The notes beneath the pieces were generated by a model. It saw only the letters and a list, made by a program, of their open reading frames with translations, was not told where the DNA came from and did no database searches. Shown here piece by piece: positions 14,802 to 21,714 of a DNA stretch of 26,213 bases. The DNA is from a virus. The stretch is taken from positions 1 through 26,213 of IMG/VR virus record IMGVR_UViG_3300031569_000035, one strand, 5' to 3'. The position numbers were made by a program, and so were the translations under genes. Every line of letters starts with the position of its first letter. Within the stretch, counting starts at the first letter, position 1.

Positions 14802-15194
14802 TTAAGCATTTGTCATAGCCCCATGACGCTCTTTAGCCAGCTTATACCGCCTATAGTCAGCTAGTGATTGCTCTCTACCTCCACGCTTATCGGCTTCATA
14901 GATCATCATGCAAACCTTATCAGTCTCAATGGTGGCCTGCTGCTCACGGGTAGGGCCAGTAGGTCGGCTGGAGTCTGGTGGGAATAGCTCACTAACGCTT
15001 AACCCTAATGACTCTACAATCTCCATGCCAGTAGCTCCACATGAGAAGCAATTCATTAGCACTGTACCATCTGGGCATTCCTTCACGCCCATGCTGGCAG
15101 TCCTGTCTCCATGTACAGGGCAGAGGGCTACCCACTTACTCTTGCCGTTAGCTTTAACGCCATCCAGCATCATTAGGATCGCTTCTACACTCAT
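14802..15194 (-). CDS. Stand-alone DnaG-type primase zinc-binding domain (CHC2)
   Basis: This 130-aa protein contains only the zinc-ribbon part of a DnaG-like primase. Cys25-Pro-Val-His28 and Cys49-Phe-Ser-Cys52 form the CHC2 site (LCPVHGDRTASMGVKECPDG and NCFSCGATGMEIVESLGLSV). Then comes a charged tail with no TOPRIM catalytic core. DnaG zinc domains read the priming trinucleotide. A free copy may pair with a catalytic subunit encoded elsewhere or act as a regulator. The start overlaps the upstream stop (ATGA), so it is coupled to the 100-aa and helicase genes. The domain call is firm; the working partner is unknown. Confidence 0.85.
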   Translation of the reverse strand: MSVEAILMMLDGVKANGKSKWVALCPVHGDRTASMGVKECPDGTVLMNCFSCGATGMEIVESLGLSVSELFPPDSSRPTGPTREQQATIETDKVCMMIYEADKRGGREQSLADYRRYKLAKERHGAMTNA

Positions 15195-15493
15195 AGTTGC
15201 TCACCATGCTTGCGTAATCTGTATGGCCCTGTGCTTAGGTCAGAGGATATTTGATTTAGGATTAAGTCAGCGATCATCTTCTCACTATTAACAACGTCCA
15301 TCAGATTGTCTAATCCTTTAACCTCGTCCTTAACCAGTTTATTAACCACCTGCTGTAACGTACACCAATACGTCTTCTTCTCAATAGTTTCGTACTTACC
15401 TGTTTTCTTGTTAACCTTACTAGATTTATGACTCTGAATTAATATCCAGTTATGTGCTTCTGCTTCAATGCGATACTCGTTTGAAATTTTCAT
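15191..15493 (-). CDS. Conserved phage hypothetical protein next to the helicase
   Basis: This 100-aa protein starts MKISNEYRIEAEAHNWILIQ and carries KKTGKYETIEKKTYWCTLQQ, then VVNKLVKDEVKG. The pattern (a short strand pair, a Lys-rich turn, then (Y/F)-x-(G/C)-TLQQ and a helix) is like small DUF5405-type proteins near replication genes in phages. That likeness is from memory and is loose. Both ends overlap neighbours by 4 nt, showing tight coupling with the helicase and primase domain. A replication accessory role is a guess from location. Confidence 0.65.
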   Translation of the reverse strand: MKISNEYRIEAEAHNWILIQSHKSSKVNKKTGKYETIEKKTYWCTLQQVVNKLVKDEVKGLDNLMDVVNSEKMIADLILNQISSDLSTGPYRLRKHGEQL

Positions 15494-16965
15494 GCTGCGT
15501 TACTCCGTTTGCTGTACCGTATTTGGGTACTTGTTATATATTTTCTAGTTTCATCACTTATGCCATCTACCATGTGAGGCTTGATAGCATTAGGCCATAC
15601 TCCGTAGCGTTCACGGTACTTGTGACTAGCCCAGCCACCGTCTTTATAGCCCTTACCTCTAGAGTACAGTAATAACTCGGAATAGAACACACTTTTGTCT
15701 TCTTTAGTTGCTGTTTTGTTTCTCTGCTCTGGCGTTAGCTTGGTTAGAATCTCACTGGTAGACTCTAGCTGCTCACGTATTGGAACTTCATAGCCACACT
15801 TGCAGCGTAGCCCAACCATCTGCTGCGTACATTGTGGGCAGTCTTTAACCTTAGATTCCTTCTTTTTCTTCACCAGCTTCTTCTCATCGAATCGTTGTGT
15901 ACCGTCATCCAGTACATCTGGCACAATATCCTCTGCAAAACCATGTCGAGCTACGTTACCTGCATGATCCAGATACACAGCCTTGTCCTTGCCATCTGAG
16001 GTACGCATAACCCTGCCTGCTCGCTGTACAAAGGTAATCAATGACTTGGTAGGGAAGCAATCGATAAGGCATGATACTTTAGGAGCATCGTAACCAGTGT
16101 TAAGTAACCGTGAGCATGAGAGTATTTTAAACTCACCACGATCATGCGCATCATAGATCATCTGGCGCTCTTCATCGTCCATGTATCCGTCGATATGCTC
16201 TGCCGATATACCTGCACCGTTGAATGTATCAACCAAGTGCTTTGAATGTTTAATGCTTGGAGCGAAGGCGATTGTCTGCCCGTTCTCGCCATGTTCTAGC
16301 CAGTTCTTTACTATGTCACCCACTAACCCTTTGTCGTCTTCTGTAGCGGCTGCTAGGCTGCTAGGATCATAGTCACTGCCACCAGTTCCTAATGCTTTAG
16401 TCTTAACACCTTTAAGGTTTACGTTACGTCCACCATAATAATCCACTGGGCATAGATAACCCTGATCCAGTAGTTCGCGTGGGGTGATTGGCACTATCAG
16501 ATCATCGTAATACTTACCCAAGCCCTTAGAGTATGGCGTGGCACTTAGCCCGATGAATGGTACGTTATTGTACGTGTCCATAATCTTGGTTAGCGAGGCG
16601 TAATGCGTTTGGCATTCATCCACTATGGCTAGATCAAACTCAGGCAGCTTAGGTCTACGTGCTAGCGTCTGGATGCTGGCTATCTGTATTGGTGCGTTAC
16701 GGTTGGTTAGCTCGTGGTTACCCTGTATAACACCGAACTCTAACCCGTGGTGGCTGAACGCTTCAAGGCTCTGCTGTACTAGCTTAATTCGATCACAGAT
16801 AAATATGCCCTTCTTGCCGCGAAGTACCGCTGACTTGAGTAGGGCTGCTGCAGTAATTGTCTTACCAAATGAGCAAGGCGCTGCAAGGATTGGTCGTTTA
16901 TTCCCTTTGCGTAGTGAAGCACGTAGCATCTCAATCGCTTTTTCTTGGTGTGGGCGTAGGTTCAT
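15490..16965 (-). CDS. RadD-like superfamily 2 DNA helicase
   Basis: ATG 16965 (MNLRPHQEKAIEML) is preferred: GTGAGA lies about 7 nt before it. A GTG at 16977 would add four residues. Counting from that longer start, motif I is APCSFGKT (33-40), motif II DECQ (121-124), motif III SATP (146-149), and motif VI QRAGRVMR near 326. A zinc ribbon (CPQC, then CKCG) follows near 385-400. The C-terminus (FYSELLLYSRGKGYKDGGWA, then HKYRERYGVWP) is typical of RadD/YejH-type helicases. RadD proteins act with SSB in recombination and repair. Here it probably serves replication or recombination of phage DNA. The Walker A has Cys-Ser-Phe where Thr-Gly-Ser is usual. It heads a four-gene overlapping unit. Confidence 0.88.
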   Translation of the reverse strand: MNLRPHQEKAIEMLRASLRKGNKRPILAAPCSFGKTITAAALLKSAVLRGKKGIFICDRIKLVQQSLEAFSHHGLEFGVIQGNHELTNRNAPIQIASIQTLARRPKLPEFDLAIVDECQTHYASLTKIMDTYNNVPFIGLSATPYSKGLGKYYDDLIVPITPRELLDQGYLCPVDYYGGRNVNLKGVKTKALGTGGSDYDPSSLAAATEDDKGLVGDIVKNWLEHGENGQTIAFAPSIKHSKHLVDTFNGAGISAEHIDGYMDDEERQMIYDAHDRGEFKILSCSRLLNTGYDAPKVSCLIDCFPTKSLITFVQRAGRVMRTSDGKDKAVYLDHAGNVARHGFAEDIVPDVLDDGTQRFDEKKLVKKKKESKVKDCPQCTQQMVGLRCKCGYEVPIREQLESTSEILTKLTPEQRNKTATKEDKSVFYSELLLYSRGKGYKDGGWASHKYRERYGVWPNAIKPHMVDGISDETRKYITSTQIRYSKRSNAA

Positions 16966-17458: not shown

Positions 17459-17794
17459 TTAGAAAAAGTAACTGTACAATACTGCACCAGTAACACCACC
17501 AGCAAAGCTTAGTAAAAGGCCATACAGAGACTTCATATTAGAGGCCACCCCATCTAGCTTCTTGGTTTGAGTATTTACGGCTAACTCGTTTCGAGCCTGA
17601 TAGGTGCGCTTCTTAGCTGGTCTAATAACGTCACTATCTTTACCACTATGTTTAATCTTACTTAGCCTAACCTGTATAGCCACTTCACTTCTCTCTAATA
17701 TGCCTCCAATAAAAGCATTGTCATAGCCTTTGATTTTTAAGGTACTTAGCATAGCAAGGTCTGTTTTGCTCCAAGTTTTATTTGATTTATTCAT
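17459..17794 (-). CDS. HTH-like protein with C-terminal membrane anchor
   Basis: This 111-aa protein starts at ATG 17794, behind the GGAGTATTAAAA leader shared with erf. Residues about 8-48 (TWSKTDLAMLSTLKIKGYDN, then AFIGGILERSEVAIQVRLSK) follow the W-x6-L-x2-L-x4-G-x5-I-x2-LxRS-x2-A pattern of short DNA-binding helices such as GcrA- or SANT-like folds. A basic linker KKRTYQAR follows. Residues about 88-111 (SLYGLLLSFAGGVTGAVLYS, then YFF) form one hydrophobic helix. A DNA-binding head on a membrane tail could tether phage DNA to the inner membrane. That is inference. It follows the SleB gene by 15 nt. Confidence 0.65.
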   Translation of the reverse strand: MNKSNKTWSKTDLAMLSTLKIKGYDNAFIGGILERSEVAIQVRLSKIKHSGKDSDVIRPAKKRTYQARNELAVNTQTKKLDGVASNMKSLYGLLLSFAGGVTGAVLYSYFF

Positions 17795-17820
17795 TTTTAA
17801 TACTCCAGTTTATTTATAAA
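17790..17820 (-). repeat. 31-bp leader repeat, copy A (shared with erf leader)
   Basis: This 31-bp stretch matches 21257-21287 at 28 of 31 positions. On the minus strand it reads TTTATAAATAAA, CTGGAGTATTAAAAATGAA. It includes the ribosome site GGAG and the start codon, and its upstream half overlaps the last codons of the SleB gene. Confidence 0.75.
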
Positions 17821-18223
17821 AAATATGTTGTCCGACTTCAAGAACAACGGTCATATCGCCTGCCCAGTATGGGTTAACGTATGTTGCGTGATAGTGAGTA
17901 GCTCCCTCACTAATGTCTGTTACGGTTCCTGCAATGATGTGTTTAGCCAGTATCACCGACTCTAACATTGCCTTACCGTCTTGTGGGTTATCTGAGATAC
18001 CATCGCAGTACCAGCTAAACTGACAACGATTCCTAATGGGGTTTACCAAGTCCCATCCGTGATACTTAGCCTGCTGTACTACACCACACACTGTATCAGG
18101 GTAGCGAGGATCTGCTACACGATTCATCGTTACATAGCCTACTGCTATATTGCCTGCTAAAGTCTCTCCACGGGTCTCATGGTAGAGGTTCATTGCTAGG
18201 CACATTACCGCCGCGCTAATCAT
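17810..18223 (-). CDS. SleB-type cell wall hydrolase (Hydrolase_2), endolysin
   Basis: This 137-aa protein is almost wholly a Hydrolase_2 domain. It shows MNLYHETRGE with the catalytic Glu, then GNIAVGYVTMNRVADPRYPD and TVCGVVQQAKYH, CQFSWYCDG, and ATHYHATYVNPYWA. The family cleaves the glycan strand of peptidoglycan (lytic transglycosylase-like). No signal peptide or membrane segment is evident, so it needs a holin or another exit route. The start ATG 18223 overlaps the upstream TGA, with GGGAG before it. A second, chemically different hydrolase is encoded at 23538-23924, next to the holin. Identification is firm. Confidence 0.9.
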   Translation of the reverse strand: MISAAVMCLAMNLYHETRGETLAGNIAVGYVTMNRVADPRYPDTVCGVVQQAKYHGWDLVNPIRNRCQFSWYCDGISDNPQDGKAMLESVILAKHIIAGTVTDISEGATHYHATYVNPYWAGDMTVVLEVGQHIFYK

Positions 18224-18417
18224 GCCTTACTCCCTTGCTTAGTTAAGACTTCGCGCAGTTTAATTACTGGGCAATTATCCGAGTGCTTCATTCCATCAAG
18301 GCAATGGGCACAGCCATAAATATCATCTACGGCAAACGCCTCACCAAAAGGCTCAAGCGCCATTACTGAGTCTGTTAATTCCTGAAGCTCTACAACGTAA
18401 TTTCCGATCTTGCTCAT
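18220..18417 (-). CDS. Small hypothetical protein with Cys/His cluster
   Basis: This 65-aa protein starts MSKIGNYVVELQELTDSVMA, behind ACGGAGTATC. The middle has CAHCLDGMKHSDNCPVIKL: two Cys in C-x2-C, then His and a third Cys, a possible metal site missing a clear fourth ligand. It is coupled to the SleB gene by a 4-nt overlap. A UUCG hairpin stands just upstream of its ribosome site. Function unknown. Confidence 0.65.
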   Translation of the reverse strand: MSKIGNYVVELQELTDSVMALEPFGEAFAVDDIYGCAHCLDGMKHSDNCPVIKLREVLTKQGSKA

Positions 18418-18429
18418 TTGATACTCCGT

Positions 18430-18443
18430 GGGGCCGAAGCCCC
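18430..18443 (-). promoter_or_regulatory. UUCG-capped hairpin before a ribosome site
   Basis: In minus-strand mRNA GGGGC-UUCG-GCCCC forms a very stable 5-bp hairpin, followed by A and then CGGAG, the ribosome site of the 65-aa gene. There is no U-run, so it is not a complete terminator. It may set mRNA stability or translation between the 100-aa and 65-aa genes. Confidence 0.6.
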
Positions 18444-18447
18444 GTTA

Positions 18448-19425: not shown

Positions 19426-19891
19426 TAGCTGCCTTGTAGGTTTCGTACTCTGCTAGCGTCTTGTCTGTGAACTCAACACCGTACTCAGAACCTTTAGCGA
19501 ATAGGTACTCAATAAACTCTGATCTCACATCCTTATTAAAGCCGCTGGTTGGTGGTCTACTGGGTATCATTGCCATACCGCATAAACTAGGTATCCATGC
19601 GTTACCTTCTTTTAATGGCAAGTCCATAGCTAGACGCTCTCTAGCGAAGTCAAACACTAAAAGCTCCTTCCATGCTTTGACGTTGTACCTATTACCGTTA
19701 GGCTTAACCTGTTTGGCAAAGTCACCCATCTGGGCATGGTAACACTTCTCCTGAAGCCTTGAGCCTTTGTCACGGCCTAGCGTTACAATAACAGCCTCGC
19801 CGCTCTTCAAGCCCTTATTAGCCATGTCCCAGACTTTAAGCATTTCTGCTTTGACGTTATCTACTGTAACAGTGAACTTTAGATCAGCCAT
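19418..19891 (-). CDS. ninB: NinB (lambda Orf)-like recombination mediator
   Basis: ATG 19891 is chosen because GGTGAG lies just before it. A GTG at 19900 would add three residues without a ribosome site. The product, 157 aa, keeps NinB marks: LQEKCYHAQMGDFAKQV, then AWKELLVFDFARERL, IPSRPPTSGFNKDVRSEFIE, and YLFAKGSEYGVEF. Lambda Orf loads recombination proteins on single-stranded DNA in RecFOR-like fashion. It lies between a Cro-like regulator and ninG and downstream of erf, a complete single-strand annealing and resolution set. Identification is strong. Confidence 0.9.
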   Translation of the reverse strand: MADLKFTVTVDNVKAEMLKVWDMANKGLKSGEAVIVTLGRDKGSRLQEKCYHAQMGDFAKQVKPNGNRYNVKAWKELLVFDFARERLAMDLPLKEGNAWIPSLCGMAMIPSRPPTSGFNKDVRSEFIEYLFAKGSEYGVEFTDKTLAEYETYKAANG

Positions 19892-20096
19892 TAGACTCAC
19901 CCATTGAGATAAATTCTGCCAGTGTGATGCTGAAGTAATTAGCCAGCTTACTAGCGAGTGATATCTTCATGTCCTTGCCTGTACGCCAGCGAATTACCTG
20001 CTGTGGATGTACTTCAAAGACTTTTGATAGCTCTGCACCTGTGATTTTAAACTTCGCTTGTGCTACTCTTAATGAGGCACCAGTGTCGATGTTCAT
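19884..20096 (-). CDS. Cro/XRE-like helix-turn-helix regulator
   Basis: This 70-aa protein starts MNIDTGASLRVAQAKFKITG. Residues about 21-38 (AELSKVFEVHPQQVIRWR) form the HTH, with the recognition helix around HPQQVIRWR. A helical dimer part follows (ISLASKLANYFSITLAEFIS). The size fits Cro or other single-domain phage regulators. AGGGG precedes ATG 20096. It may bind the paired palindromes at 18800-18836 or the direct repeats at 21348-21386. That link is inference. No CI-type two-domain repressor or integrase is in the window, so lysogeny cannot be judged. Confidence 0.8.
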   Translation of the reverse strand: MNIDTGASLRVAQAKFKITGAELSKVFEVHPQQVIRWRTGKDMKISLASKLANYFSITLAEFISMGESNG

Positions 20097-20114: not shown

Positions 20115-20123
20115 TGGTATATT
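20115..20123 (+). promoter_or_regulatory. Plus-strand extended -10 (TGGTATATT) for a short RNA
   Basis: TGG-TATATT on the plus strand, just upstream of the anti-leader sequence and its terminator. No good -35 is seen. Start near 20130. Confidence 0.45.
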
Positions 20124-20129
20124 GATTTT

Positions 20130-20177
20130 AATACTCCAGAAGTACCTTGGCCCACCCTAAACAAGTGGGCCTTTTTT
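20130..20177 (+). ncRNA. Candidate antisense sRNA against GGAGTAT leaders
   Basis: A transcript of about 48 nt would start AATACTCCAG and end in the terminator at 20149-20177. Its 5' end (with the TTTT just before it) is the exact complement of CTGGAGTATTAAAA, which spans the ribosome site of the HTH-TM gene at 17794. Twelve bases match the erf leader (GGAGTATTAAAA), eight the 21421 leader, and seven the 18417 leader. It is also antisense to the 5' leader of the Cro-like gene. Promoter, 5' seed and terminator give the form of a classic bacterial sRNA. Expression is unproven. The matching string could be just a decayed leader copy. Confidence 0.45.
20149..20177 (+). terminator. Intrinsic terminator, plus strand
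   Basis: GGCCCAC (20149-20155), a 9-nt loop CCTAAACAA, GTGGGCC (20165-20171), then six T on the plus strand. The minus side lacks a U-run (AAGGTAC follows), so minus-strand readthrough from the SSB-like gene to the Cro-like gene is expected. Confidence 0.85.
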
Positions 20178-20184
20178 CGGTCTA

Positions 20185-20457
20185 CTAAAACGGAATATCG
20201 TCATCATCATCAATAGCATTATTTGTTGGCGATGGAGTAGATCTAGGTGCTGACCTCTGAGGCTGCTGTTCTTTTAGTGTGACAGCCAAGCTAAGTGCTG
20301 GTGACTGAGGGCTAGCACCTGCCTTTCGCTTCCATCCACTCACAAAGTAGTCCTTACCATCGACTAGGATAGATCCAGTAAAGTCTGGCTGCGTATCCTT
20401 AACCTTCTTGTCGTTACCCCAGATTGCACCACGGTTGTTGTTATCGTAATCACTCAT
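20185..20457 (-). CDS. Small SSB-like protein with acidic DDDDDIPF tail
   Basis: This 90-aa protein has a compact N-terminal part (NRGAIWGNDKKVKDTQPDFT, then GSILVDGKDYFVSGWKRKAG and SPALSLAVTLKE) with the strand pattern of a minimal OB-like or DUF736-like domain. A Pro/Ser/Thr/Gln linker follows. It ends AIDDDDDIPF, the acidic tip by which bacterial SSB proteins recruit partners such as RecO, PriA and RadD. Lying next to erf and with a RadD-like helicase in the same genome, it is probably the phage single-strand binding protein. The tip is seen directly; DNA binding is inferred. Confidence 0.7.
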   Translation of the reverse strand: MSDYDNNNRGAIWGNDKKVKDTQPDFTGSILVDGKDYFVSGWKRKAGASPQSPALSLAVTLKEQQPQRSAPRSTPSPTNNAIDDDDDIPF

Positions 20458-20649: not shown

Positions 20650-21261
20650 CTACATCCCTTTCTTGCTGCGTACAAATTCTTGCTGCTTGCCAGTTAGCTG
20701 GCTCCATAGCTTCTGCTTTTCAACTTCATCCAACTCACCTAGCGCCTCATTCATTAGCGTATGCTCATCAGTAGACTCGGCATTAATAACCAATGCCATA
20801 CAATCTTGCATGAGTTTCTTGCTTACACGTTTCTGTGGAAGTTGTTCCGCAGAAGCTGGATCGTTACGATACATAGCCATCTCGCTATCATCATCTACGG
20901 CTGGAATACCAACAAGTGACTGTAGGGCATAACGGCGAGCGTAAGTTATTGCTGAACCAGCGCCCTGTGGAGTCACCTTATCCATAGGTAATAGGTACTC
21001 GCTTTGTATCCACTGCCCTGAACTGTGCATCAACATAGTAGCTACACCCACGCCTTTACCTCCCTCAGATGTTACTGGTAGCTGCACAAACGATAGGCCA
21101 TGATTAGCAAATGGCTGCTTGATTACCTTAATGACACTGGTTAGGTCTGCGTAGCTACTATTAAAGAAAGTGTTATTACTATCCTTAACAGCTCCACCCA
21201 TCTCTGCCTGTGCAAGACATAGTGCTGTAGCAAGGTCTGTAATTGATTCGCTTTGTTTCAT
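20650..21261 (-). CDS. erf: ERF-family single-strand annealing protein
   Basis: This 203-aa recombinase starts MKQSESITDLATALCLAQAE. Family marks are FFNSSYADLTSVIKVIKQPF, GLSFVQLPV, and residues 102-118 (GSAITYARRYALQSLVG), the strongest ERF signature. VDDDSEMAMYR follows. The C-terminus is helical and charged. ERF proteins anneal complementary strands, circularising genomes and driving phage recombination. It is the first gene of the minus-strand recombination unit, behind a strong promoter (TTTACA-17-TAGAAT) and the GGAGTATTAAAA leader. Identification is firm. Confidence 0.92.
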   Translation of the reverse strand: MKQSESITDLATALCLAQAEMGGAVKDSNNTFFNSSYADLTSVIKVIKQPFANHGLSFVQLPVTSEGGKGVGVATMLMHSSGQWIQSEYLLPMDKVTPQGAGSAITYARRYALQSLVGIPAVDDDSEMAMYRNDPASAEQLPQKRVSKKLMQDCMALVINAESTDEHTLMNEALGELDEVEKQKLWSQLTGKQQEFVRSKKGM

Positions 21262-21287
21262 TTTTAATACTCCGTTCTATTTATAAA
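21257..21287 (-). repeat. 31-bp leader repeat, copy B (erf leader)
   Basis: It matches the leader of the gene at 17794 (17790-17820) at 28 of 31 bases. On the minus strand it reads TTTATAAATAGAA, CGGAGTATTAAAAATGAA, holding ribosome site and start codon. Confidence 0.75.
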
Positions 21288-21386: not shown

Positions 21387-21420
21387 GGTCATCGAATTAG
21401 CACTAACAAACGGAGTATTT

Positions 21421-21714
21421 ATGAAAATAATTATTTTATACGTAGCAGAGTCGACCATCCTTGAGACAAGAGATGACCTATTCACTGAGCTAGTAGTTAC
21501 TGGTAGCGTGTACATCAATAGCCACAGGGTTACAGTGTACGAGTTACTGGAAGATATGGACGTTGAAGATAAGGACTGCGTATTTGCCATGCTGCTAGTT
21601 GATAAGTCTGAGGCTAAATCTGAGGCTAATGAGCTGCTTTGGTCTAGGTTCTTAGCAGAGTACGATGATGAGGCTATTGAGAAGCACGTTATTGATGAAG
21701 GTGAGTCACTATGA
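21421..21714 (+). CDS. Acidic hypothetical early protein
   Basis: This 97-aa protein is the first plus-strand gene, starting at ATG 21421 behind CGGAGTATTT. It is strongly acidic: ELLEDMDVEDKDCVFAMLLV, EYDDEAIEKHVIDEGESL. A strand start (MKIIILYVAEST) and a helical end are likely. First genes of phage early units often encode host-takeover or anti-defence inhibitors. Acidic DNA-mimic proteins are one such class, but nothing here proves it. Its stop overlaps the next start by 4 nt. Confidence 0.7.
   Translation: MKIIILYVAESTILETRDDLFTELVVTGSVYINSHRVTVYELLEDMDVEDKDCVFAMLLVDKSEAKSEANELLWSRFLAEYDDEAIEKHVIDEGESL

Follow-up and report, generated by a model that had tools for sequence, protein, structure and literature searches.

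The window, meaning the whole stretch of viral DNA analyzed here, is 26,213 nucleotides (nt) long and covers positions 1 to 26,213 of IMG/VR record IMGVR_UViG_3300031569_000035. Its minus strand carries an operon with the order erf-ssb-hth-ninB-ninG, and a candidate small RNA unit (20115-20177) lies on the plus strand, antisense to the ssb-hth gap. The features at the locus are as follows.

19884..20096, minus strand: hth, a small Cro/C1-type HTH gene, divergently adjoining the small RNA promoter
20115..20123, plus strand: extended -10 promoter element TGGTATATT, read from the sequence, with TGnTAnn[A/T]T at the same place in 37/37 homologous loci
20130..20177, plus strand: predicted small RNA of ~48 nt, running from its putative 5' end through the last T of the terminator (covariance model match 20115-20178, 73.7 bits, the window itself being part of the model's alignment)
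20130..20139, plus strand: putative seed AATACTCCAG, the complement of the GGAGTATT leader word, with CTCC in every member
20149..20177, plus strand: predicted intrinsic terminator, stem 20149-20155 / 20165-20171 plus T6, with compensatory changes in relatives
20185..20457, minus strand: ssb, located 3' of the small RNA gene; ssb mRNA carries the complement of the RNA

The sequence-only reading had described an extended -10, a 5' seed, and a terminator that together form a unit of about 48 nt in a minus-strand operon. Such a unit is present in the window sequence as claimed, and comparison with relatives strengthens and confirms the observation. AATACTCCAG starts at normal spacing from the extended -10, for which no fitting -35 was found in the window sequence, and a 9-base linker separates it from the GC stem. 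The terminator has the stem GGCCCAC/GTGGGCC, a loop of 9, and T6 at 20172-20177; a terminator scan missed it only because the scan was limited to loops of 8. Alone, the small RNA is predicted to form the terminator and, beyond that, no more than a weak 5' stem, and in the first group (below) the seed is open or only weakly paired in the predicted fold, as expected of a trans-acting small RNA. No Rfam family scored above its gathering threshold, the best subthreshold match (16 bits) being gone with a longer stretch, and a literature search covering part of the literature returned no description of this RNA. A minimal open reading frame (AUG CUC CAG UAA in some relatives) was rejected, as it is absent in the window and in forms starting at GCUCC, and no evidence pointed to a role as a replication primer.

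The RNA is confined to the ssb-hth gap and stays upstream of the hth Shine-Dalgarno sequence (AAGGGGAA, which belongs to hth itself), and the ssb-hth intergenic RNA is a perfect complement of its entire length. The minus-strand copy of the leader word was also considered as the start of a longer HTH protein, with an in-frame ATC codon in the window, and this was rejected, as relatives have no start codon there.

The family consists of uncultured marine phages. Searches with the HTH protein and one DNA pattern yielded 37 homologous IMG/VR loci, counting only those that contain the region, and all 37 keep the unit at the same place and with the same layout on one strand: TGnTAnn[A/T]T, CTCC within a few bases, a GC hairpin, and T4-8, with the hth Shine-Dalgarno sequence directly adjoining. 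CTCC near the predicted 5' end is invariant in all members, while the linker drifts. No relative was seen to retain the terminator and lose the complementary segment, the pattern that the earlier reading had named as counting against it. A covariance model built from 19 of the loci, which match by construction, scores members at 52 to 88 bits. The terminator stem shows 19 double-sided changes with 100% of cells paired, and no shuffle was as high on those measures. At the sequence level, then, the unit looks like a free-standing gene, with a conserved extended -10 and a conserved terminator whose stem covaries.

Beyond these loci, profile scans of genome contigs with the HTH and Erf alignments, run as a search for hosts or prophages, returned no relative, and in named phages whose erf or HTH genes are similar (PHS3, Pq0, BA3, and 1.259.O) no match to the covariance model improved on E 0.55. 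Hosts of the closest named phages include Vibrio, Pseudoalteromonas, and Thalassomonas. A promoter-CGCTCC-terminator unit scoring 36.9 bits occurs at L058:8182-8243 and L075:3806-3867, with no erf, ssb, or hth match in the available part; these two were selected by a pattern of the same shape as the unit, and the four GGAG leaders there do not match the unit's seed.

Several leaders in the window are complementary to the seed and constitute its predicted targets.

17799..17808, minus strand: CTGGAGTATT leader of gene 17459-17794 (10 nt, best energy, -14.7 kcal/mol)
21266..21273, minus strand: GGAGTATT leader of erf (20650-21261, minus strand; 8-nt pairing, with covariation across relatives)
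21412..21419, plus strand: GGAGTATT leader of gene 21421-21714 (plus strand), which opens the divergent operon (8 nt)
18421..18427, minus strand: GGAGTAT leader of gene 18220-18417 (7 nt)
15501..15506, minus strand: weaker predicted target, GGAGTA leader of gene 15191-15493, replication initiation-like (6 nt)
18228..18233, minus strand: weaker predicted target, GGAGTA leader of gene 17810-18223, a cell wall hydrolase gene (6 nt; not kept in relatives)

These lengths are counted contiguously from the predicted start at 20130. The sequence-only reading had put the pairing at 14 nt for the 17794 gene and 12 nt for erf; both leader matches stand, and the lengths come down to 10 and 8 nt because the earlier count took in TTTT (20126-20129), which lies between the -10 and the predicted start and is probably outside the RNA. 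The briefer complementarity it had reported for the 21421 and 18417 leaders is also there, at 8 and 7 nt. The predicted duplexes are short (8 to 10 nt, -11 to -15 kcal/mol). Four copies of GGAGTATT occur in the window (17799-, 20130-, 21266-, 21412+) versus 0.63 expected, a count reached in 2 of 100 shuffles, and GGAGTAT occurs eight times versus 3.2 expected. Within the window alone, the leader matches are thus moderately beyond chance; it is their conservation and covariation in relatives that make the sequence case convincing. Separately, a GC hairpin of the type GGGGCTTCGGCCCC at 18421-18447 (minus strand) is followed directly by a CGGAGYATCA-ATG leader, before small genes, and similar intergenic modules of this hairpin and leader recur in L008, L031, L034, L038, and L053.

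The window and L009/L032/L033 have A immediately before CTCC; the others have G. At erf, ~1.1 kb from the seed, the leader reads GGAGTA in the A-seed phages and GGAGCA in nearly all G-seed phages, with L049 (GGAGTA, giving a G-U pair) and L044/L045 (GGAGG, so that the erf match is partly lost) as exceptions. On a tree of HTH and Erf, the A seed arose independently on two well-supported branches, and the erf base follows in both; these are the only two independent seed switches in the first group, too few for any sign test or tree-corrected analysis to give significance. The check on leaders that had been suggested with the original observation bears this out beyond erf. The first gene of the divergent operon (21421) has GGAGTA in the window and GGAGCA in most G-seed phages (the word is lost in L009/L032/L033), and the 15493 gene and its L050 orthologue have GGAGTAACGCAGC versus GGAGCAACGCAGC in otherwise matching leaders, that of L050 containing GGAGCA. 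G seeds tolerate U in leaders through a G-U pair and A seeds go with U, as pairing predicts. Complementarity in trans is thus kept by covariation, with exceptions: in L053 (9906-9970) and L054 (6873-6937) the seed is CGCTCC yet leaders read GGAGCA, a mismatch with erf one base beyond CTCC, at the base that obeys the rule elsewhere. L009, with an A seed, also keeps one GGAGCA leader. In the Erf proteins of L002 (3903-4592) and L036 (5020-5718), the ERF-family N-terminal part is not that of the window's Erf (20650-21261), and both keep the GGAGCA leader; the L002 protein has a C-terminal tail similar to that of the window's Erf, which would fit an exchange of the core.

More divergent erf phages carry their own version of the unit (L105, L107-L110, L123, L124, L137, L145, L147, L149, and L153). 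This second group was reached through Erf relatives with weak covariance model matches, L145, L147, L149, and L153 being found later. The unit sits in the same place, downstream of ssb and antisense, and adjoins another small protein of 59 to 62 amino acids (aa), which has no Pfam or PHROG match and which we read as HTH-like from its sequence. It has TGCTATACT or TGCTATAAT, a 5' hairpin (ACCTCT-ATCGCTCC-AGAGGT, with the compensatory change ACCACT/AGTGGT), and a terminator, with fold z-scores of -3.0 to -5.5. The seed is displayed in the loop of the predicted 5' hairpin, and this seed, UCGCUCC, matches GGAGCGA before erf, a DNA repair exonuclease gene, NinB, and others. A single phage, L095, has a unit with CCUCCUUA and the erf leader UAAGGAGG. 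Here the seed CCTCCTTA (L095:5950-6007) equals the 16S anti-Shine-Dalgarno sequence, opposite the erf leader TAAGGAGG, so this one unit is possibly an anti-Shine-Dalgarno mimic.

Leaders across the genomes follow the seed class: GGAGCA with TGCTCC, GGAGTA with TACTCC (including the window), and GGAGCGA with TCGCTCC, at erf and other genes. Among distinct leaders, taken as GGAG lying 4 to 10 bases ahead of an ATG with an open frame of 40 codons or more (a rule that admits some leaders that are not real), the two bases after GGAG are CA in 72/174 (TGCTCC), TA in 7/25 (TACTCC), and CG in 19/85 (TCGCTCC). Erf relatives with no detected unit show none of these enrichments (CA 11/133, TA 10/133, CG 3/133), and in the G-seed phages GGAG away from start codons is followed by CA in 14%. 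Perfect pairing of the erf leader with its own seed exceeded that with swapped seeds (summed length, 115 versus 89.7; P of about 5e-5, a value that ignores ancestry), and when each seed state was represented by a single phage, the true assignment of seeds to erf leaders ranked first among 120. Ribosome binding fails to explain the leader word, because the bases beyond GGAG add nothing to 16S pairing.

Taken together, these observations are best accounted for by a trans-acting small RNA of ~48 nt that would cover Shine-Dalgarno sequences and lower translation of recombination and replication genes, a reading to which we assign a probability of roughly 0.7. We infer that transcription of this phage-encoded RNA starts at an extended -10 promoter of its own and stops at its intrinsic terminator. 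The 5' seed, which in the window is AAUACUCC, would pair in trans with the GGAGYA Shine-Dalgarno leader found at erf, at 21421, and at several other genes, and the pairing would block 30S binding and so reduce translation of recombination and replication genes in several transcription units. Because the pairing covers the Shine-Dalgarno sequence itself, the simplest effect would be to deny 30S subunits access to erf, 21421, and similar genes. The pairing may be helped by a chaperone such as Hfq, and the T5-8 tail fits an Hfq-dependent small RNA. It is also conceivable, though speculative, that the ssb-hth mRNA, which has the full complement, occludes or soaks up the RNA, which would then act mainly once early transcription falls.

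Antisense action in cis alone is the alternative that fares best, and we consider it unlikely. The RNA could pair along its full length with the ssb-hth mRNA, much as OOP does with cII, and lead to cleavage or to uncoupling of hth, with the likeness of leaders a by-product. The perfect complementarity to the ssb-hth intergenic RNA fits this, as does the unit's place between ssb and a small HTH gene, which persists where the HTH gene belongs to a different family. However, such action leaves unexplained why the leaders of erf, 21421, and other genes change with the seed, why CTCC is invariant amid a drifting linker, and why the second group displays its seed in a loop, and the RNA stops short of the hth Shine-Dalgarno sequence.

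It is less probable still that a GGAGYA leader module has simply been reused across the genome, the minus-strand copy before hth being one more instance and its plus-strand complement coming free, with no acting RNA. The word is indeed repeated in many leaders, also beside intergenic hairpins. Yet in no relative does a start codon follow the copy upstream of hth at Shine-Dalgarno spacing, hth already has its own site, and the copy abuts a conserved promoter and a directional terminator on the plus strand. AT drift was rejected as the cause of GGAGTA, the GC content of the window (44.5%) being among the highest of the set. That the RNA is real and mainly targets host genes, sponges a host RNA, or activates rather than represses is equally improbable: PreS and VpdS do act on host genes (PMC12197685), but the coevolution here is with the phage's own leaders, and pairing over the Shine-Dalgarno sequence itself normally represses.

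The trans-acting RNA that we favor shares traits with several known systems. Like the OOP RNA of lambda, it is short, has its own promoter, and lies antisense within an early operon near a small regulator gene (PMC12197685). Unlike OOP, which acts in cis on cII and is defined by being antisense to the cII coding sequence, it covers only the ssb-hth gap; its conserved matches are leaders in trans, and the small regulator gene differs between groups while the match of seed and leader stays. The sar RNA of P22 and the c4 RNA of P1/P7 are phage RNAs that pair at a ribosome-binding region and block translation (PMC12197685), as is predicted here; they are antisense to ant and act on it, whereas the targets predicted here are many genes with a common leader word, with no antirepressor among them. 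VpdS of phage VP882 and PreS of lambda are likewise small RNAs that phages encode and that act in trans on several or distant targets (PMC12197685). For those two, Hfq dependence and targets were established by experiment, while here the targets are predicted from sequence; in addition, the known target of PreS is a host gene, whereas those predicted here are phage leaders. Self-directed phage RNAs covered in a recent review mostly act on one phage gene (PMC12197685).

Some bacterial small RNAs form a class with a 5' seed against the Shine-Dalgarno sequence, an intrinsic terminator with a long U tail, and pairing in trans at mRNA start regions. The phage RNA is predicted to share the 5' seed, the terminator with a long U tail, and the pairing in trans, and it differs in being much shorter (44 to 53 nt) and in having a predicted phage regulon whose leaders follow the seed. 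In our judgment, what is new is a phage regulatory RNA with one seed and many leaders of the same phage, rewritten together. We suggest only tentatively, and with some doubt, that the RNA and the common leader amount to an address code, in which one seed reads a word placed before many genes and rewritten in step by each lineage, such that each phage would control its own recombination and replication genes and spare or discriminate against co-infecting relatives with another word.

An RNA of 44 to 53 nt thus appears to govern how a whole set of recombination and replication genes is translated, by way of a common ribosome-site word. Such an RNA would explain the preference for GGAGCA or GGAGTA leaders, a choice not required for 16S pairing, and the natural compensatory changes between lineages already amount to a swap experiment.
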